Below are positions 5,489 through 22,711 of a stretch of 22,711 bases of DNA, one piece after another. Location: positions 1 through 22,711 of the IMG/VR virus record IMGVR_UViG_3300021959_000427; one strand, written 5' to 3'. A program made the translations under genes and the position numbers. The notes beneath the pieces were generated by a model. It saw only the letters and a list, made by a program, of their open reading frames with translations, was not told the origin of the DNA and made no database searches. Within the stretch, counting starts at the first letter, position 1, and each line of letters starts with the position of its first letter. The DNA is from a virus.

Positions 5489-5727
5489 TGGAACTGACAC
5501 CTTACTTATTTTGGAACATATTTATCACCTTGGTACTTGCTCCAATCTTGTATGGTATTAGACAAAACTTTGATGAAGCAAAACGATTGGATATTTTATT
5601 AAACAAAACTCGTGAAGAGATCCCAACCAAGTACGCTACGAAAGAAGAGCTAAAAGACGATGTATCGCAAATTCTCGATAGATTTGATAGACTTGAGGAA
5701 AAATTAGATAAATTTTTAGTTAAATGA
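5488..5727 (+). CDS. Membrane-anchored coiled-coil protein after endolysin, spanin-like layout
   Basis: A 79-residue protein started at ATG 5488, which overlaps the endolysin stop as TAATG. A TTG twelve bases earlier is in frame but less likely. Seen: a hydrophobic N-terminal segment at about residues 5-25 (PYLFWNIFITLVLAPILYGI) and then a highly charged helix with heptad-like Leu/Ile spacing (VSQILDRFDRLEEKLDKFL) to the end. Directly following holin and endolysin, an N-terminally anchored coiled coil is a reasonable inner-membrane spanin (Rz-like) candidate. No lipoprotein partner (Rz1) was found nested in or after it, so the call stays tentative. The stop overlaps the next start (ATGA). Confidence 0.68.
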   Translation: MELTPYLFWNIFITLVLAPILYGIRQNFDEAKRLDILLNKTREEIPTKYATKEELKDDVSQILDRFDRLEEKLDKFLVK

Positions 5728-7139
5728 GTTTAAAAAAAATAGGCGGAAAAATATTTGACGACATACTGGGCATTGATCCTAGTGGTAAAGGTCTTGTTGG
5801 CAGCATTAAAGACAATCCAAAAACAGCAGCCCTATTAGGTAGTTTGTTTATACCTGGAGTTGGTTCAGCAATTACAGGTGGTTTAGGCGCAGCAGGTTCT
5901 GCCATAGGAAGCGGTTTAGGAACTATAGGTTCTGCTTTAGGAAGCGGTTTAGGAGCATTGGGCGGTTTAGGTTCAAGCGCATTAGGAGCTGTTGGTGGTC
6001 TAAGCGGTTTAGGTGGATTACTAGGTAGTGTTGCTCCTTTTGTTACTGGTTATGGCGTGGGACAACAACAAGGACCACAAATCCCACCACAAGGTTTTTA
6101 CAATATGCCAAGCATGGGTGGAGGATTATTAGGCGGTGGCGCACCAATCGGACAATCGGCTTTTGACTATGCCAGATCAATCGCTGGCGGTATGCCATTT
6201 GAACAAGTAGTACAACCAGGCAGAGAGTTTTCACTAGAATCACCAATGGGTGAACCAGTTGCACCACAAGCACAAGTTCCAGCCGCACCAGTCACAAAAC
6301 TTTTCTCTGGAATAGACGCAAGCATTGGTGGTTATCGTGATCCATCTGAAAGGCTTGGTGGTGTAGAAAGATTTATTGGACCAGATGGCAGAGATCTTAG
6401 ACCTTATCTAGGCATAGATCCTTATGAAAGATTAAGAGTAGAAGAAGATATTTTTGGTAGAGTTGGTGATGATTTTAGACCTACAGAAATAAGAGGACCA
6501 GGTGGAGATATATTCGGTGGACCATTAGGTCCTGGTGGAAGATTAGCAGAATTATTTGGTATAAAAGATAAAGGACAAGACGATGGTGTTTACGTTGGTG
6601 GCTCAAAAGATTTTAGAGAATACGATCCATTAAAAGATCCAGAGCGTTTTAGAGCGCCAGAAATAGATCCATTTAGAGATGGTATTAGGCCAACTGAAAT
6701 CTTTGGTCCTGGTGGTGAGATCATAGGACCTATGGGTAGAATGTCTGATGTACAACCAAGATCAGATCAAGATATTATTGATTTAATCGAAGGTAGGCTG
6801 GGTGAATATCAGCCTGTAATCCCACAGCAAGATTTAAGTGGCTTTGCTCGTTTAGAAGATATACCATCTTTTATCCCAAGAACAGACGAAGAAATTAGGG
6901 GTTTAATTAGTGAAGGTATTGCTGGGATTCCAACGCCAGCTCAATTTGATCCATCAGGATTACAAAGAAGATTGGCTGCATTAGAAGGTAGAGAAATACC
7001 TCAGTTTGATCCATCAGGAATATTATCAAGATTATCTGCCTTAGAAGCTCAAGGCGAACCACGTTACACTCAACCAGGCACAGAAAAAGATATATTGCCA
7101 CCAAAATCACCGCTTGGAAAATTATCTCTTTTTGGTTAA
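5724..7139 (+). CDS. Glycine-rich repeat protein of unknown function, possible virion/membrane-active protein
   Basis: A 471-residue protein. Seen: a basic start, then a Gly/Ala/Leu/Ser region (about residues 36-115) with an 11-residue tandem motif (GSAIGSGLGTI, then GSALGSGLGAL). A Pro/Gln/Gly linker follows. The middle is charged, with RPTEI-x-GPGG(D/E)I at residues 252 and 322. The end carries a tandem 20-residue repeat beginning FDPSG (408 and 428) that continues as coiled-coil-like RLxALE. A hydrophobic glycine-rich segment beside a charged repetitive tail recalls phage proteins that insert into membranes during DNA ejection, but no family is recognised. Its place between the lysis genes and the scaffold is unusual. 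A non-enzymatic virion or host-surface role is possible. No ribosome site is evident; translation is probably coupled through ATGA. Confidence 0.72.
   Translation: MSLKKIGGKIFDDILGIDPSGKGLVGSIKDNPKTAALLGSLFIPGVGSAITGGLGAAGSAIGSGLGTIGSALGSGLGALGGLGSSALGAVGGLSGLGGLLGSVAPFVTGYGVGQQQGPQIPPQGFYNMPSMGGGLLGGGAPIGQSAFDYARSIAGGMPFEQVVQPGREFSLESPMGEPVAPQAQVPAAPVTKLFSGIDASIGGYRDPSERLGGVERFIGPDGRDLRPYLGIDPYERLRVEEDIFGRVGDDFRPTEIRGPGGDIFGGPLGPGGRLAELFGIKDKGQDDGVYVGGSKDFREYDPLKDPERFRAPEIDPFRDGIRPTEIFGPGGEIIGPMGRMSDVQPRSDQDIIDLIEGRLGEYQPVIPQQDLSGFARLEDIPSFIPRTDEEIRGLISEGIAGIPTPAQFDPSGLQRRLAALEGREIPQFDPSGILSRLSALEAQGEPRYTQPGTEKDILPPKSPLGKLSLFG
5895..5954 (+). repeat. 33-bp period tandem duplication coding GSxxGSGLGxx
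   Basis: Two 27-base blocks (5895-5921 and 5928-5954) differ at only two bases and are spaced 33 bases apart, giving an 11-residue protein repeat within the glycine-rich segment. Near identity at DNA level points to recent duplication. Confidence 0.7.
6945..7064 (+). repeat. 60-bp tandem duplication coding FDPSG units
   Basis: Two 60-base units (6945-7004 and 7005-7064) begin with the near-identical TTTGATCCATCAGGA and each encode FDPSG followed by a short helix ending RLxALE. They form the C-terminal part of the 471-residue protein and look like a duplicated turn-plus-helix module. Confidence 0.65.
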
Positions 7140-9443: not shown

Positions 9444-9737
9444 ATGGCTAGACGAACACTAATAGATCATAAATCAGGTTACAAACATGAATTTGTAACC
9501 GAAGACGATAAAGTTATTTATCACACCCAACAAGACGTACAACCAACATTGGAGTACGTTAAAAATTTATCAGACACTTTAAAACCAGGGAAAGATTTAC
9601 GACACGTTGCTGAAGTTCCTATGGTAATATATCAGAGAGCCATGCGAGAAGGTTGGGCTAAAGATCAGAAGGCATGGAAAAAATGGTTGAACAATCCAGA
9701 TAATAAATTGTTCAGAACTTGGAAAGGTAGAGTATGA
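9444..9737 (+). CDS. Conserved small phage protein (head/neck region)
   Basis: A 97-residue protein. Seen: a start with MARRTLIDHKSGYKHEFVTE, a central DVQPTLEYVKNLSDTLKPGK, then DLRHVAEVPMVIYQRAMREG and a C-terminus with NNPDNKLFRTWKGRV. The order (DVxPxLExxK, DLRxVAxxPxVxxxxxxxEG, LNDPDNxxFRTxxGRV) recurs in phage genes next to capsid and adaptor genes; the function is not known to me. The ATG directly abuts the T-run of the terminator hairpin and lacks a purine-rich ribosome site, so initiation is probably weak or leaderless-like. The stop overlaps the next start (ATGA). Confidence 0.78.
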   Translation: MARRTLIDHKSGYKHEFVTEDDKVIYHTQQDVQPTLEYVKNLSDTLKPGKDLRHVAEVPMVIYQRAMREGWAKDQKAWKKWLNNPDNKLFRTWKGRV

Positions 9738-10384
9738 CATATTCAGAGCTTAAAACTAACATAGCATCATTTCTTAATAGATCGGATTTAGATAGTCAAT
9801 TGGATTTATTTATTGACCAAACAGAAGCCGAACTCAATAGAAGATTAAGAACCAAAGAAATGATTAAAAGAGCTACAGCAACTGCTGATAGCCAATATAT
9901 GTCTTTACCAACCGATTGGTTAGAAGTTATTAATGTTGAGATTACATCAAATGACTTCAGACCTTTATTTCAACAGTCACTAGAATCATTAGATGTTTAC
10001 AGAAGAGCCAACGATAATGTCGTTGGTCAGCCAGTTTATTATGCTGTTATGGACGATGCTTTAGAACTAGCACCAACTCCAGATACATCATATACCTTAC
10101 AACTTACTTATTACGAAAAAGTCCCAGCATTATCGGATTCCAATACATCTAATTTTGTGTCCAATAACAATCCAGACGTTTATCTGTATGGTGCATTAAA
10201 GCACGCTTCTATCTTCTTAATGGAAGATGAAAGAGTTGGTTTATTCAATGCACAATTTGAAAAAGCATTGGAAGAAATGAGATTGGCTCAAGAGAAGGCA
10301 GAATTTGGAAAAGGATCACTAATGCAACGCAGAAGGACTTACGGAAAAGCAAAAAAGAATATATACTATTTTAATAATAACTAG
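9734..10384 (+). CDS. Head-tail adaptor, SU10/P22 gp4-like
   Basis: A 216-residue protein proposed to form the ring under the portal that joins head and tail. Seen: an N-terminal helical part (MTYSELKTNIASFLNRSDLD, then LDLFIDQTEAELNRRLRTKE), a beta-rich middle with MSLPTDWLEVINVEI and VYYAVMDDALELAPTPD. A helical end follows with PDVYLYGALKHASIFLMEDE and EKALEEMRLAQEKA. The pattern FI..AEAEINRRLR, L..LP.D.LE...V, and the final YLYGALxxAxxFLxDxxR matches SU10-type adaptor proteins. It sits downstream of the capsid gene as expected. The start overlaps the previous stop (ATGA), so translation is coupled. Confidence 0.8.
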   Translation: MTYSELKTNIASFLNRSDLDSQLDLFIDQTEAELNRRLRTKEMIKRATATADSQYMSLPTDWLEVINVEITSNDFRPLFQQSLESLDVYRRANDNVVGQPVYYAVMDDALELAPTPDTSYTLQLTYYEKVPALSDSNTSNFVSNNNPDVYLYGALKHASIFLMEDERVGLFNAQFEKALEEMRLAQEKAEFGKGSLMQRRRTYGKAKKNIYYFNNN

Positions 10385-10392
10385 GACAAATT

Positions 10393-10779
10393 ATGGCAGG
10401 ATTTTCAGATTATTTAGAACTTGAAGTATTGGACCACGTTTTTGGTGGCGCATCTTATACAGCACCAGCAACAATCTATGTGGCTCTTTATACTGTCGCA
10501 CCAGACGATACAGGTGGTGGTACAGAAGTTTCTGGCGGTGGCTATGTGCGTCAATCAATGGCATTTGGCACGGCAGCTAGTGGATCTATCAGCAATAGTG
10601 GCTCAGTCGAGTTCCCAACAGCAACAGCCGATTACGGTACAGTCGTTGCTATGGGTTTATTTGACGCTTCAAGTGCTGGTAATTTATTGGCATACGGTGA
10701 CTTAACCACATCTAAAACAGTATCAAACGGAGATGTATTCAGATTCAACGCTAGTTCAGTAACTATTTCATTGGATTAA
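10393..10779 (+). CDS. gp80-like beta-sandwich virion protein
   Basis: A 128-residue beta-rich protein. Seen: AGFSDYLELEVLDHVFGG at the start, ATIYVALYTVAPDDTGGG, then EVSGGGYVRQSMAFGTA, a Ser/Asn/Gly turn, and a C-terminus with TTSKTVSNGDVFRFNASSVT. The order FSDYLExxxLDHVFGGxxYxxP, TxYVxLxTxxPxDxGGGTEVSGGGYxRQ, FPTATxxWGTV matches a family annotated as phage tail fibre protein or Gp80-like (related to mycobacteriophage gp80). Its actual role is unclear: decoration, fibre attachment or neck protein are all possible. Placement between adaptor and fibre fits a structural job. A weak AGGAC ribosome-like site lies 6 bases upstream of the ATG. Confidence 0.75.
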   Translation: MAGFSDYLELEVLDHVFGGASYTAPATIYVALYTVAPDDTGGGTEVSGGGYVRQSMAFGTAASGSISNSGSVEFPTATADYGTVVAMGLFDASSAGNLLAYGDLTTSKTVSNGDVFRFNASSVTISLD

Positions 10780-10783
10780 TTAA

Positions 10784-11437
10784 ATGGCCCAGCAAGGTTA
10801 TGGGTTTGGTGGTTACGGTAAGTCGAACTGGAGTGACTTACAATATGAGCTGGGCGTATCATCCGTATCAGTAACTGCTTCTGTTTCCCCTACAGCTACA
10901 CAAATAGATGTTGGTGAAGCCAGCATATCTGTTACCTCAAGCACCACTTCAGCAGGCAACTACACTCAATTAGGTGCATCATCGGTAAGCGTTACATCAT
11001 CAGCTACACAAGCTGGGATCTTAATTTTAGGTGGTGATGCCGATTTATCGGCAAGTGCATCTTTAAGTGCTGCTGGCACACAGATTGATCTAGGTGTAAG
11101 CACAATCTCAGTATCATCTTCTATATCACCAACTGGAACACAAATTGACGTAGGTGAAGCAACCATTAGCGTTAGTGCATCTATTGCAGCAAATGGTACA
11201 CAACTAACAACTGGTGCATCGGCTATTAGCGTCACTTCTGGTGTGGCATCGAGCTTAAATACCAGATTTAATGGTGCGTCGTCATTTGCACAAACAAGTT
11301 CACTTTCTATCATAGGTGGTTTAAAATGGGAAGATGAAACTGTACCTTCTGAAGATTGGTCAGAATTAACCACAACAGGCAGTTGGACAGAACAAGCAAA
11401 TCCAAGCACATCTTGGACGGAACAACAAAATAGGTAA
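10784..11437 (+). CDS. Structural protein built of eight 20-residue beta repeats
   Basis: A 217-residue protein that I do not recognise as a named family. Seen: a short Gly/Tyr-rich head (MAQQGYGFGGYGKSNW), then eight consecutive repeats of exactly 20 residues (residues 23-182). The consensus is roughly LGxSxISVTSSxSxxGTQID, with alternating small/polar and hydrophobic residues. The tail is Trp-rich, with WSEL, SWTEQ and SWTEQ (W192, W201, W211). Strict spacing and alternation suggest a beta-solenoid or chain of beta strands. It lies between a beta-sandwich virion protein and the tail fibre, so a fibre-base or adhesion role is likely. Only 2 bases separate it from the fibre gene. Confidence 0.75.
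   Translation: MAQQGYGFGGYGKSNWSDLQYELGVSSVSVTASVSPTATQIDVGEASISVTSSTTSAGNYTQLGASSVSVTSSATQAGILILGGDADLSASASLSAAGTQIDLGVSTISVSSSISPTGTQIDVGEATISVSASIAANGTQLTTGASAISVTSGVASSLNTRFNGASSFAQTSSLSIIGGLKWEDETVPSEDWSELTTTGSWTEQANPSTSWTEQQNR
10850..11329 (+). repeat. Eight tandem 60-bp coding repeats
   Basis: Units start every 60 bases from 10850 and all are 20 codons long with no insertions. Protein identity is highest between units ending TQID (1, 4, 5) and those starting VGEA (2, 6); the last two are diverged. The alternation (LGxS.., VGEA.. at units 1-2 and 5-6) suggests amplification in larger blocks as well as single units. Confidence 0.75.
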
Positions 11438-11439
11438 TT

Positions 11440-14055
11440 ATGGCAGATACATTTACAACAAATCTTAACTTAACAAAGCCAGAGGTCGGTGCATCAACCG
11501 ATACCTGGGGAACAAAACTTAATGACAACTTAGACGATGTTGATGCGATCTTTTCCTCCACAGGAACATCGGTCGCCATCAACCTAGATGGTGCAGTTAT
11601 TGATAGTTCCGTCATTGGTGGGACAACTCCCGCAGCAGGGACATTTACAACCCTGACAGCAAACACTTCTATTACAGGAACACTTGCAACCGCAGCTCAA
11701 ACCAACATAACCTCAGTCGGCACACTTACAGGGCTTACTGTTAGTGGTAATGTTTCTATAGATGGTGGATCTATCAAACTAGATGGTAACTATCCAACAG
11801 GTACAGGTAACGTAGCTTTAGGTGATACAGCTTTGAATAGTTTGACAAGTGGTGGTTACAATATTGCTGTTGGAAATCAAGCATTATATAGCAACACTAC
11901 TGGTAGTGATTTAGTTGGTATAGGTTCTGCTGCACTTTATAACAACACTACTGGTACAAGGAATGTTGCTTTTGGTAATAATGCACTTAATGCCGTAACT
12001 ACTGGAACTAACAATACTGGCTTGGGTGATAGAGCATTACGAGATAATACTGGAAGTAATAATACTGCAGTAGGTTCTGATGCACTTTTATCTAACACTA
12101 CAGGTACTAATAATACCGCAGCTGGTTCTGAAGCTTTAGATGCTAATAGTACAGGAGATAATAATGCAGGTTTTGGTAGAGCAGCTTTAGGTGGTAATAC
12201 TACAGGTGGTGCTAATACAGCTCTAGGTTCTCAATCTCTTCTTGCCAATACAACAGCAAACCACAATACTGGTGTCGGTTATTTAGCCTTAGGTGCTAAT
12301 ACAACAGGTACACAAAATACTGCAGTAGGTTCTACAGCCCTAGATGCCAATACTACAGGACAACTTAATGTGGCTATAGGATATGGAGCTTTAGGTGCCA
12401 ATACCACAACAAGTCATGGTACAGCTATAGGTTATGAAGCCCTATCAGCCAACACAGTTTCATTCAATACCGCAGTAGGCTCACAAGCCTTAAAAGCCAA
12501 TACAGCAGGTGATTCACTCGTAGCTGTTGGTGCACAATCCTTAGTAGCCAATACCTCAGGTGCAGGAAATACAGCAGTTGGACGAGATACTTTAGGCTCC
12601 AATACTACAGGTGCTGATAACACAGCACTCGGTAAATCAGCTTTATATGGCAACACCACAGGTACTAGAAACGTAGCTCTAGGTAAGAATGCAAGTTCTA
12701 ATAGAACAACTGGAAGTTATAGTGTGGCTGTTGGTCACGATGCGAAGGTAGGAACAACTGCTACTGGAAACGTTATGATTGGTGACAGTACAGGAACAGG
12801 GTTAACAACAGGAAATAACAACGTAGGTATTGGTTCATTTAATGGCTCAAACCTACCACCTTTTTATGCTGCTACCACCGCTTATCAAAATATAGGTATC
12901 GGTGTTGGTTCATTAAGAAAGATTACTTCTGGTTCTAATAACGTAGCAATGGGACACCTTGCTGGAGAGAGTATAACCACAGGTACATTAAATGTTGCAA
13001 TAGGCTCAAATGCTTTAGATGCTAATGCTACAGGTATTGAAAATACAGCCGTTGGTTATGCAGCTTTAACCACAAATACAGGCTCATACAACGATGCCTT
13101 TGGTAGGTCTGCTTTAGAACGCAATACTTCAGGTTCAGAAAATAGTGCTTTTGGTAGATTTGCTTTATATCAAAACACAACAGGTAATTATAACGTTGCT
13201 GTGGGTGGTCTTGCTTTACAAAATAATACTACAGCATCTAATAATACTGCAGTAGGATATGGTGCTTTGACTGCTAATACAACAGGTACAGATAACGTAG
13301 CCGTTGGGTCATTAGCTGGTGATGCTATTACCACAGGTTCACAAAATGTGTTGGTAGGAGAAGGTGCAGGAACTGCTATCACAACTGCTAATGTTAATAC
13401 TTGTATTGGAGATATTGCAGGAGCAGGAATAACAACTGGTTCAATAAATATCTGTATTGGTGCAGGTGCTGGATATAATGGTGGCACAAATGGAGTTACT
13501 ACAGGTATAGACGGAATATATATTGGTAACAATACAAGTGGTAATAACGACAGTTCAAGAGAAATTGTTTTAGGTCATAATGTAAGAGGGGTTGGAGGCA
13601 ATAGATTTACTTTTGGATATTCAACTGGTAATGATAGAGTTCATAATCAATTTGATACTAATGCTTCTTGGACTAGGGTTTCTGATGAAAGATACAAGAC
13701 AGAAATTCAAGACAACAACGATTGTGGTTTAAACTTTATTAATGACCTACGACCAGTTACTTTTAAATGGAAAGCAAAAGCAGATATAGATTCTGATTTA
13801 CCAGATTACAATCCAGAAGAAACAGAACCAAAACACAAAGAAAAACTTTATGGTTTAATTGCTCAAGAAGTTAAAGAAGCTCTTGAGAAAAACAACATTA
13901 CAGATTTTGGTGGTTGGGATATAGAAGAATCTTCAGGTATTCAAGCCATATCTCAAGAGATGTTTATTCACCCACTAATCAAAGCTATACAAGAACTATC
14001 CAGTCAAGTAGAAAGCTTGAAACAAGAAATTAATGACATAAAAGGAGGAAACTAA
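11440..14055 (+). CDS. Tail fibre/spike with repeat shaft and S74 chaperone domain
   Basis: An 871-residue receptor-binding fibre. Seen, in order: an N-terminal virion-attachment segment (TTNLNLTKPEVGASTDTWG, residues 6-24, common in phage fibres) and a Thr/Gly-rich link (PAAGTFTTLTANTSITG). About 35 repeats of 17 residues follow (124-721), with consensus NTAVGxxALxxNTTGxx, resembling the YadA-type trimeric adhesin head. A C-terminal Peptidase_S74 chaperone starts at SDERYKTEI (S748). In this family the chaperone drives trimer folding and cuts itself off just before that Ser, with a Lys in the same motif (here K753) also needed. Downstream helices (YGLIAQEVKEALEK; SSQVESLKQEI) match the domain's stalk. 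The mature fibre would thus end near residue 747. GGAGG near its end serves the next gene. Confidence 0.88.
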   Translation: MADTFTTNLNLTKPEVGASTDTWGTKLNDNLDDVDAIFSSTGTSVAINLDGAVIDSSVIGGTTPAAGTFTTLTANTSITGTLATAAQTNITSVGTLTGLTVSGNVSIDGGSIKLDGNYPTGTGNVALGDTALNSLTSGGYNIAVGNQALYSNTTGSDLVGIGSAALYNNTTGTRNVAFGNNALNAVTTGTNNTGLGDRALRDNTGSNNTAVGSDALLSNTTGTNNTAAGSEALDANSTGDNNAGFGRAALGGNTTGGANTALGSQSLLANTTANHNTGVGYLALGANTTGTQNTAVGSTALDANTTGQLNVAIGYGALGANTTTSHGTAIGYEALSANTVSFNTAVGSQALKANTAGDSLVAVGAQSLVANTSGAGNTAVGRDTLGSNTTGADNTALGKSALYGNTTGTRNVALGKNASSNRTTGSYSVAVGHDAKVGTTATGNVMIGDSTGTGLTTGNNNVGIGSFNGSNLPPFYAATTAYQNIGIGVGSLRKITSGSNNVAMGHLAGESITTGTLNVAIGSNALDANATGIENTAVGYAALTTNTGSYNDAFGRSALERNTSGSENSAFGRFALYQNTTGNYNVAVGGLALQNNTTASNNTAVGYGALTANTTGTDNVAVGSLAGDAITTGSQNVLVGEGAGTAITTANVNTCIGDIAGAGITTGSINICIGAGAGYNGGTNGVTTGIDGIYIGNNTSGNNDSSREIVLGHNVRGVGGNRFTFGYSTGNDRVHNQFDTNASWTRVSDERYKTEIQDNNDCGLNFINDLRPVTFKWKAKADIDSDLPDYNPEETEPKHKEKLYGLIAQEVKEALEKNNITDFGGWDIEESSGIQAISQEMFIHPLIKAIQELSSQVESLKQEINDIKGGN
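11809..13602 (+). repeat. About 35 tandem 51-bp (17-residue) repeats in the fibre gene
   Basis: Units read N-(T/V)-A-(V/I)-G-x-x-A-L-x-x-N-T-T-G-x-x. Most are exactly 17 residues; at least four are 16 (for example NTGLGDRALRDNTGSN and NTAVGYAALTTNTGSY). Two are longer: one near residues 465-487 carrying LPPFYAATTAY, and one near 690 carrying GGTNGVTTG. Conserved Gly at position 5 and Asn/Thr turns indicate a solenoid with one coil per unit. Confidence 0.8.
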
Positions 14056-21300: not shown

Positions 21301-22458
21301 ACAGGGCTTGCTCGTGATTGGCAGGCTTATGTAGCTAGACATCCAGGATGGAGATTCTTAACTCCTTTTATTAGAACACCAATCAATATTGTTAATTACG
21401 CTTTTGATAGATTGCCAACATCAGCATTTTTTGGTCAAACGAAAGAAGATATAGTTAAAGGCGGTCTTGCTAGAGATAAAGCATTAGGCAAAATAGCTTT
21501 GGGAGCCTCAATAATGGCGGGTGTTTCTACACTAGCACAAAACGGACAAATAACTGGTAGAGGTCCTTCAGCATGGAAAGAAAAACAACAGCTTATGGAA
21601 GAAGGTTGGCAGCCGTATTCTATTAAAGTTGGCAATAAATATTATTCTTACAATAGATTTGAGCCTGTTGGTATATTGTTTGGTGTGACAGCCGATCTCA
21701 ATGAAATTGTTAGAGATGCACCACAAAAGTTTCAAGATGAAAACCAAGATGCTATAGCAGATATAGGCACACAATTGATTGGTTCTGTTTCTGAAAACTT
21801 AATTAATAAAACTTTCTTAACTGGCTTGGCTGGTGCAGTTGAAGTTATTAGTGATCCAGACAGATATGCTGATAGATTCCTACAAAGATTTGCAGGTTCA
21901 TTTGTGCCAACTGCTTTTTACTATGGTAGAAAAGCAGAGGATAACTTAGTAAGAGATGCTAGAACAACAACCGATAATTTAATTAATAGATTACCTCAGG
22001 TTGGAGGTGAGTTTTTCTTTGGTAAAACATCAAAAGATTTACCACCTAAAAGAAATGTATTTGGTGAAACCATAGAATACAGACCAACACCAAATGTTTT
22101 TGGTTATACCTTCATTCCAATTAATATTTCTGAAATACAACAAGATCCAGTATTTTCAGAACTAAATAGAATTGGCTATGTTCCAAGCATGCCACAAAGA
22201 AAAATGGGATCTGTTGAATTAACACCAGACCAATATGAATCTTTATTAAGAATACAAGAAGAGCTTGGTACAAAACAAAAGCTTGAACAAATTGTCTTAA
22301 GTCCAAACTACACCAACAGCACAGAATATCAAAAACAAATGATATTAGAAACGCTTATAAAACAAGCCCAAGAACAAGCTAGAACAATTTTTAGACTAAG
22401 AAATCCAAGCGTGGTGCTTGAAGATGAAGAAAACAAACTTAAAGAACTACAAAAATGA
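18319..22458 (+). CDS. Large internal virion / DNA-ejection protein (1379 residues)
   Basis: The largest gene in the window. Seen: a start with repeated DPF motifs (IIDPFAKPTNIVDPFKTQEE), common in such phage proteins, then long Glu/Lys-rich helical and linker regions. A region near 615-790 begins with IRLDKYVEPEDFKKIVQDVV. The motif ELWINGLLSAPPTHMVNIIS (from residue 804) opens an Ala/Gly-rich amphipathic segment (about 804-900). A later section has TRTP-like membrane-edge text (FLTPFIRTPINIVNYAFDR). The C-terminal domain has VFGETIEYRPTPNVFGYTF and a helical tail. ELWxNxLLSxPxTHxVNxxSN is a signature I associate with the large internal proteins or polyvalent proteins of podoviruses, which leave the head to build a channel across the envelope. 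No lytic transglycosylase motif was seen. The stop overlaps the next gene (ATGA). Confidence 0.78.
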   Translation: MADPIIDPFAKPTNIVDPFKTQEEKPTGFENIAYRTVLGALRDAGQATIEFGDFVGNLKNPFYLTNIARLTAAKRQNVPGAEKALVDFVTQKEEPSLTLPEVPEPEGVGLQVARTIGQYALPYAGTRKALSDAGIKITKKAGEKFFSKDQLVRTGKEIALGSAVEQYAFSPDEERLSNLLQEVAPNAVFEFLQANPEDPEALQRLKMALEGSAIAVPFEFAARTLGKLRSQKTKEVEVKQTAETDENIVTDVPAEQAIQNVQPYKPQAGVKSFDELTKEKQNIIRSQQKDPINFKFDDVSGNASAKVGKNKFDFVRNPDGTYQLNIKSFRNKEEVEAAINIEKDEKAARGVNIDDEIPYLRKQFTEEEINRPVERFGNLTDAKKYVVKRFVNKGGLPSDLSPVRPKVKLARSILKFHPEDYGLEDVASSMGYTRRELPPSYLSRDLRPGDAFERAGEKLTEAGFTGRLGDRATGYSGLEKDEISSILADNRPLPSDVKFDDYQRFQDEQNAADSLVNQLEAAGYDPTTMTNAQVRSALKNIDNEQNYIEQGLDQAEYFDSQTDEFEIQLKSRAERVAREAREAIGIVDEPEIRLSQGGNKPPVEGPEKAGNIRLDKYVEPEDFKKIVQDVVDNKVNLDAARRVVKFGTQGEELKALAQQLGMTPDDVMLRKVGQAFNAEQVTATRMLFDEAGARVATLARKVADPSQASDALRVELKYAMTKFASLAEQLVGITAEAGRALRAYREYIGPAEQKNKFIADFLKTNTRDDIDELAKAITQIDSDEGLATFVKEAYKPTYKDMIQELWINGLLSAPPTHMVNIISNTITTGLRPAEYFLAAAAGKFRKGDDKITFGEAGARLAGSIYGALEGLRGIGKALIKPIPFVGERFGATLEESFDLADPLTKLELARQKAIPGLAGDIIRIPGAALQIGDAFFKNIGQQQEYFGRAVRKAKAEGKGIKRAYELLRDKSKLGAEVKLDAIDEGRYVTFTKPLTGLARDWQAYVARHPGWRFLTPFIRTPINIVNYAFDRLPTSAFFGQTKEDIVKGGLARDKALGKIALGASIMAGVSTLAQNGQITGRGPSAWKEKQQLMEEGWQPYSIKVGNKYYSYNRFEPVGILFGVTADLNEIVRDAPQKFQDENQDAIADIGTQLIGSVSENLINKTFLTGLAGAVEVISDPDRYADRFLQRFAGSFVPTAFYYGRKAEDNLVRDARTTTDNLINRLPQVGGEFFFGKTSKDLPPKRNVFGETIEYRPTPNVFGYTFIPINISEIQQDPVFSELNRIGYVPSMPQRKMGSVELTPDQYESLLRIQEELGTKQKLEQIVLSPNYTNSTEYQKQMILETLIKQAQEQARTIFRLRNPSVVLEDEENKLKELQK

Positions 22459-22711
22459 ACCAGAACCAAGTTGGCCGTGCAGGGGAATACCTGACCGCCA
22501 GTTACCTCGCCAGATACTTTGACGAGTTATTTGAATGTCCTCCCCAATCCCGCTACGATTACTTAAGCGTACTTGATAACATTTCTTACAAGATCCAAGT
22601 TAAAACATCGGCTTCTACATTCATTAAAAACAGCAACGACTGGGTGCGTTGGGACATCAAGAAAAAAGTATCAAACAAGAATACAATAAGGTTATATGAT
22701 AAAAATGAGGT
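22455..22711 (+). CDS. PD-(D/E)XK-like nuclease, N-terminal part (3' truncated by window edge)
   Basis: An 85-codon open frame runs off the window. Seen: MNQNQVGRAGEYLTASYLAR at the start, a D-containing RYDYLSVLD and, after a short strand, YKIQVKTSAS. In PD-(D/E)XK nucleases (including Holliday-junction resolvase-like and restriction-like enzymes) an early helix Glu (here E11 in GRAGEYL), an Asp (here D35) and an (E/Q)xK (here Q48-V-K50) make up the active site. All four elements are present in order and spacing. It overlaps the stop of the giant virion gene (ATGA). The window ends before the C-terminus, so domain completeness and subfamily cannot be judged. It could resolve DNA branches before packaging or be a homing-type nuclease. 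Confidence 0.7.
   Translation, partial: MNQNQVGRAGEYLTASYLARYFDELFECPPQSRYDYLSVLDNISYKIQVKTSASTFIKNSNDWVRWDIKKKVSNKNTIRLYDKNE

Follow-up and report, generated by a model that had tools for sequence, protein, structure and literature searches.

Directly downstream of the collar gene in the virus DNA analysed here (the window, 22,711 nucleotides of IMG/VR record IMGVR_UViG_3300021959_000427) lies a gene whose product is built on 20-residue units and may well serve, in the neck of a podovirus tail, as a collar-associated β-coil rod or fibre base of adjustable length, not as the tip that confers host specificity. The chain opens with a 22-residue head rich in Gly and Tyr, continues with the array of 20-residue units and ends in a second array with a 10-residue period. 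The gene, its parts and its neighbours are as follows, with positions given in the window.

9734 to 10384, plus strand: head-to-tail adaptor (PF24175 SU10_adaptor, 3.4e-36; PDB 9nwi_A, 1.2e-9)
10393 to 10779, plus strand: collar protein of the GP4 gp80 family, 128 aa (PF23140, 6.4e-46; PDB 8jou_a, 2.4e-12, by profile 7.4e-25)
10784 to 11437, plus strand: repeat-protein gene, an ORF of 217 aa (dN/dS ~0.10 against two close relatives, L004 and L007)
10784 to 10849, plus strand: Gly/Tyr-rich N-terminal head of 22 aa that may act as an anchor (eight residues invariant across 56 aligned relatives)
10850 to 11329, plus strand: array of eight 20-residue units (score at lag 20 well beyond that of shuffles; position 2 of every unit is Gly)
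11321 to 11434, plus strand: C-terminal second array, starting at an LKW motif that still belongs to unit 8 (Trp residues 182, 192, 201 and 211, a spacing of 10, 9 and 10)
11440 to 14055, plus strand: tail fibre or spike with 17-residue repeats and an S74 chaperone (PF13884, 3.1e-12; phrog_4636 tail spike, 3e-91; 51-bp tandem repeats)

The main array corresponds to residues 23-182 and lies in frame inside the ORF. As a first-pass annotation of this DNA had claimed, it consists of eight units of exactly 20 residues each, free of indels. At lag 20 the BLOSUM62 score averages 1.62, compared with -0.23 (SD 0.16) in 2,000 shuffles, whose maximum over lags 5-40 is 0.64; this score rules out chance or a reading artefact as the source of the array, and the next observed peaks fall at lags 40 and 60. 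Within the units, Gly occupies position 2 in 8/8, Ser position 7 in 7/8 and Gly position 16 in 6/8. The consensus proposed earlier, LGxSxISVTSSxSxxGTQID, describes units 1 and 5 best and units 7 and 8 least well. The likeness that had been noted between units 1-2 and units 5-6 is also present, units 1 and 5 resembling each other most (14 of 20 residues and 39 of 60 bases in common), and identity within the array is higher at lag 80 (0.44) than at lag 20 (0.38). Tandem Repeats Finder, at score 30, calls no tandem repeat in the array, whose DNA has diverged too far. Strong purifying selection is seen in the forward frame of the gene, which a reverse ORF at 10966-11409 overlaps; dN/dS is higher in other pairs, at 0.27 and 0.38, and synonymous changes are missing from one pair. 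Ser and Thr together make up 33% of the protein.

Overlooked in the first-pass annotation were the second, 10-residue array and the relatives that exist outside the window. Among 82 distinct relatives, the Trp or Tyr residues of the second array are spaced by 10 in 233 of 267 steps and by 9 in the other 34, with one to five such steps per protein. The two ends of the chain are better conserved than what lies between them: mean pairwise identity across 21 cluster representatives is 0.63 in the head and 0.59 in the tail, against 0.47 in the array.

Three overlapping searches of IMG/VR returned 64, 80 and 37 loci. The pooled 178 loci are redundant, some contigs being present twice, and distinct counts are used instead: once identical proteins are removed there are 98 family members, 83 of them complete, in 22 clusters. 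The 20-residue frame is retained in relatives with as little as 25-35% identity. Variation in unit number among related contigs, proposed earlier as a check, is indeed found. Distinct complete relatives have about 6, 7, 8, 11 and 18 units, and in 74 of the 82 that carry the LKW landmark the number is exactly whole when a fixed 22-residue head is assumed (7 units in 22 proteins, 8 in 43, 11 in eight and 18 in one); the remaining eight are one to four residues off, near 6, 7, 8 and 11 units. The earlier suggestion that the array grew in blocks becomes directly visible in the 18-unit relative L143, whose DNA, compared with that of its close 11-unit relative L131, repeats internally with offsets of 180 bp (98% identical) and 240 bp (86%). 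Read at the sequence level, these offsets are in-frame duplicated blocks of three and four units, in a form known from one metagenome contig in which the extra units could partly be assembly error.

The function is best judged from the order of the genes. The repeat gene stands directly before the fibre gene, as had been pointed out, and its place directly after the collar gene is more telling. A PF23140 gene is found immediately upstream in 96 of the 98 distinct members, a count that stems from searches seeded with the repeat protein itself. An independent check is provided by 80 contigs collected with the collar protein as seed: once two loci that lack a testable downstream ORF are dropped, the next protein has a significant 20-residue period in 68 of 78. 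The linkage to a collar ring gene by which a collar or neck fibre can be recognised is thus observed in both directions. The 10 collar-seeded proteins that lack the period comprise three weak family matches by BLAST and seven different proteins. Two of the 68 proteins with a significant period (in L239 and L254) have no family match by BLAST; they could be remote members of the family, or the period could have arisen twice. The collar part itself crosses phage groups, since relatives of the gene at 10393-10779 occur in 263 phage records, 192 of which are Mycobacterium phages. Elsewhere in the window, a Gly-rich protein is encoded at 5724-7139, with a 33-bp tandem repeat at 5880-5957, and an incomplete ORF at the window end (22455-22709) looks by eye like a putative small nuclease-like protein.

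The boundary between the repeat gene and the fibre gene is informative in its own right. In seven contigs the upstream DNA is 96-100% identical to that of the window; four of these carry a divergent fibre, two the same fibre and one a truncated one. The divergent fibres depart after residue 79, and three of the four retain a diverged C-terminal chaperone. The repeat protein is 96-100% identical in all seven contigs and 97-99% identical in the four with a different fibre. Judged from these identities, swapping takes place on the downstream side of the repeat gene, and the repeat gene itself remains beside the collar gene. Exchange of the fibre next to a retained repeat protein is evidence against a host-range adhesin, and the repeat protein is probably not a host-range part; the argument concerns host range and is compatible with binding to a conserved surface molecule. 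The fibre gene of the window has tandem repeats of its own, with a 51-bp (17-residue) period, at 12048-12364, before the S74 chaperone.

Structure prediction with AF2 gives a poor model of the window protein (pLDDT 50, pTM 0.43). The 11-unit relative L131, modelled with 56 aligned members, reaches a mean pLDDT of 58.7, the ten-residue blocks between about residues 21 and 180 scoring 65-81 and the first coils 70-81. The first-pass annotation had named a prediction that lacks repeating β-coils as a result that would count against its reading; the single-chain models do show stacked coils with two to three short strands per 20-residue unit, at low to moderate confidence. In the L131 model the strands fall at unit positions 5-8, 11-15 and 18-20. 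Large hydrophobic residues occupy unit positions 6, 12 and 19 in 90%, 90% and 74% of 145 units, and this spacing of 6/7/7, which is independent of AF2, is what is expected of a three-sided coil of 20 residues. The earlier claim of one coil per unit thus agrees with the modelled strands and with the hydrophobic spacing, and stays unproven in view of the low pLDDT and of the bias of AF2 towards solenoids. According to the accessible part of a study of this bias, AF2 over-predicts β-solenoids for repeats, a permuted Ser/Thr-rich unit of 20 residues being one example, and for diverged natural repeats the different methods gave concordant models (PMC11795689). The repeats of the present family are diverged.

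Foldseek against the PDB gives no match at E<=0.001 for either the window or the L131 model; the poor window model has pectate lyase PL3 as its top match (E 0.13), and its quality is too low for homology to be drawn from it. In BFVD a single match passes E<=0.001 (A0A6J5SI72, E 2e-4, TM 0.16-0.19), an uncharacterised protein of an uncultured phage that is perhaps a family member. VIA-align, whose ranking speaks only for the families on its list, puts HxuA (4i84_B) first for the L131 model (Z 21.3, rmsd 2.0 over 195 residues). The left-handed helices LpxD and GlmU also give Z ~17, with an rmsd of ~12, so that the coil may be of either hand.

The earlier statement that the protein belongs to no named family agrees with the libraries searched (Pfam, PHROGs and PDB). 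The window protein has no meaningful Pfam match and is not a PF23140 member, and it matches none of the PHROGs v4 families at E<=0.1; its relatives match PHROGs weakly, at 0.003 at best, except for the C-terminal domain of MEP401 gp59 (1.2e-5). Pfam profiles locate the S74 chaperone in the next gene and not in the repeat protein, and profile searches reveal no lectin or depolymerase domain in the latter. Searches of PDB sequences find no relative, either with the window protein or with the family profile; three matches to picornavirus 3C at E 0.4-1.4 are taken as chance. By tblastn against 50,697 phage records there is no match to the window protein and none with the relatives L064 or L057 as queries, while L069 and phiM5 gp18 retrieved only themselves. 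The relatives in isolated phages were reached through L131, Venkman gp51 and gene order. The 27 pattern matches in bacterial genomes include no relative. A literature search found no phage paper on a "20-residue repeat" or "20-amino acid repeat", and the accessible portions of papers on the OM43 methylophage, PhiGT1, Moo19/B2 and T7 contain nothing on the repeat protein. The repeat proteins are accordingly a new and widespread family that has no name, and the object itself is of an ordinary kind, a tail part built of repeats.

Twelve proteins of named phages, several of them chosen as neighbours and not as family members, were tested for the lag-20 period. It is significant in six, including Venkman gp51 and the proteins of MEP401 and MEP402, all three Methylophilales phages, and not significant in phiM5 gp18, CRP-4 gp54, CRP-5 gp55, Venkman gp58, HTVC106P gp52 and MW202496. 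The Venkman gp51 gene (L067:14723-15439) lies ~5.5 kb after the collar gene, not adjoining it; its product, a family member, is annotated "putative E3 ubiquitin-protein ligase HERC6", clearly in error. Pelagibacter phage HTVC106P has neither the collar gene nor the repeat protein at the corresponding place, so that neither gene is universal in the lineage. The C-terminal 39 residues of MEP401 gp59 (L071:3671-4483) are common to minor tail proteins of Arthrobacter and Microbacterium phages, suggesting that they form an exchangeable Trp-rich end module. In Sinorhizobium phage phiM5, gp16, gp17 and gp19 are marked in the particle proteome and gp18, the positional counterpart of the repeat protein, is not; this counts against a virion role, though with only seven Lys and Arg residues (the window protein has four) gp18 yields few tryptic peptides and could be missed by trypsin. 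The repeat protein is a putative virion component, for which the analysis found no evidence from particles.

In the arrangement proposed here, the Gly/Tyr-rich N-terminus would anchor the protein to the collar and adaptor region, and the 20-residue units are predicted to stack as a β-solenoid-like rod, one coil each. With the textbook value of 4.8 Å per coil, eight coils amount to about 4 nm. The Trp array with its steps of about ten residues would cap the rod and probably contact the next part, for example the base of the fibre encoded downstream. Whole units are, as the sequences show, gained by duplication or lost, and the length of the rod could thus change with the fold intact. The role of such a part would be that of a fibre base or collar whisker. 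The first-pass annotation had left the choice between a fibre base and a second adhesin; the former fits better, since exchange of the fibre gene leaves the protein in its place by the collar.

A variant that keeps the same place and role has three chains intertwined, as a triple β-spiral or another trimeric β-shaft, with each unit forming one turn of the shaft. It is a possibility of some weight, given that the collar fibres of podoviruses are trimeric as far as the accessible parts of two reports describe them (DEV, PMC10925440; the A-1(L) neck fibre, PMC10966104), that such a fold would be invisible to a single-chain prediction and that AF2 prefers solenoids for repeats (PMC11795689, in the part available). 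The hydrophobic positions 6, 12 and 19, together with the three strands of the better model, nevertheless suit a closed three-sided coil, and the stacked-coil model is held to be about twice as probable as the intertwined trimer.

Readings that change the role or dispense with the fold fare worse. That the rod or the Trp array might bind a host surface molecule, making the protein a second adhesin, is suggested by its Trp-rich end, its Ser/Thr-rich surface and the label "serine-rich adhesin" given to relatives in Manatee Spring records, but it is unlikely in a protein that is so strongly conserved where the fibre is replaced, whose ends are its most conserved parts and in which the profile searches found no lectin or depolymerase domain. 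Less probable again is an unstructured low-complexity spacer whose period is a relic of slippage: the low pLDDT of the window protein and its Ser and Thr content would fit, whereas the DNA tandem repeat has gone from the window array and the 20-residue frame is still kept in distant relatives, Gly2 and the hydrophobic positions are conserved, and the dN/dS ratio is low in the closest pairs. An assembly helper for the collar or fibre that is missing from the finished virion would account for the unmarked phiM5 gp18 but is very improbable, as chaperones do not usually contain a rod-like array whose length varies.

Returning to the collar-associated β-coil rod, a wider reading seems possible, if doubtful: these proteins could constitute a very common, unnamed collar-rod family of aquatic podoviruses that acts as an adjustable spacer, in which coils added or removed in blocks set the stand-off of the fibre, and the fibre is swapped on a constant socket. 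The repeat family would supply a missing tail part of a large podovirus group, next to a collar ring now being studied for its symmetry mismatch, and it sets a conserved socket apart from a fibre that can be exchanged. None of the family libraries searched contains the family, and the annotation of at least one member is wrong. The changes in length by whole coils offer a simple natural series for asking if the length of the rod affects infection.

Several known systems can be compared with this arrangement. Among them are proteins of isolated phages: Venkman gp51, MEP401 gp59, MEP402 gp62, Roseobacter phage CRP-4 gp54 and phiM5 gp18 belong to the same or a related family, and most are encoded directly after the collar gene under annotations such as HERC6 ligase, tail protein or hypothetical. 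MEP401 gp59 differs in having another C-terminal domain, and phiM5 gp18 and CRP-4 gp54 in the lack of a significant 20-residue period. Right-handed parallel β-helices, as in the HxuA secretion domain (4i84) and in tailspikes such as that of HK620, resemble the L131 model, which aligns to 4i84_B, but have no sequence similarity to the repeat protein. The GP4 gp80 family (PF23140) is represented by a clear member encoded immediately upstream, and the repeat protein itself is no member. The PDB entry that matches this collar protein contains 10 chains of gp80, and by analogy with DEV and GP4 the collar protein of the window would form a ring of the 15-fold type. In phage DEV, as its report describes in the part available, the collar consists of 15 gp53 N-terminal barrels and has the same 15:12 symmetry mismatch as in GP4, and five trimeric fibres project from it (PMC10925440). 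Phage A-1(L), according to the accessible text, has five bead-chain neck fibres on a 15-fold ring, made of gp82-gp81-gp80, and the distal carbohydrate-binding module of the fibre showed no host binding (PMC10966104). So far as these partial accounts go, DEV and A-1(L) have, as is proposed for the window, an appendage whose genes accompany those of a ring of small proteins around the neck, or which such a ring carries, and the A-1(L) neck fibre is likewise a chain of repeating beads; the repeats of both phages are whole globular domains or chains, whereas those of the present protein are 20-residue units within one short chain.
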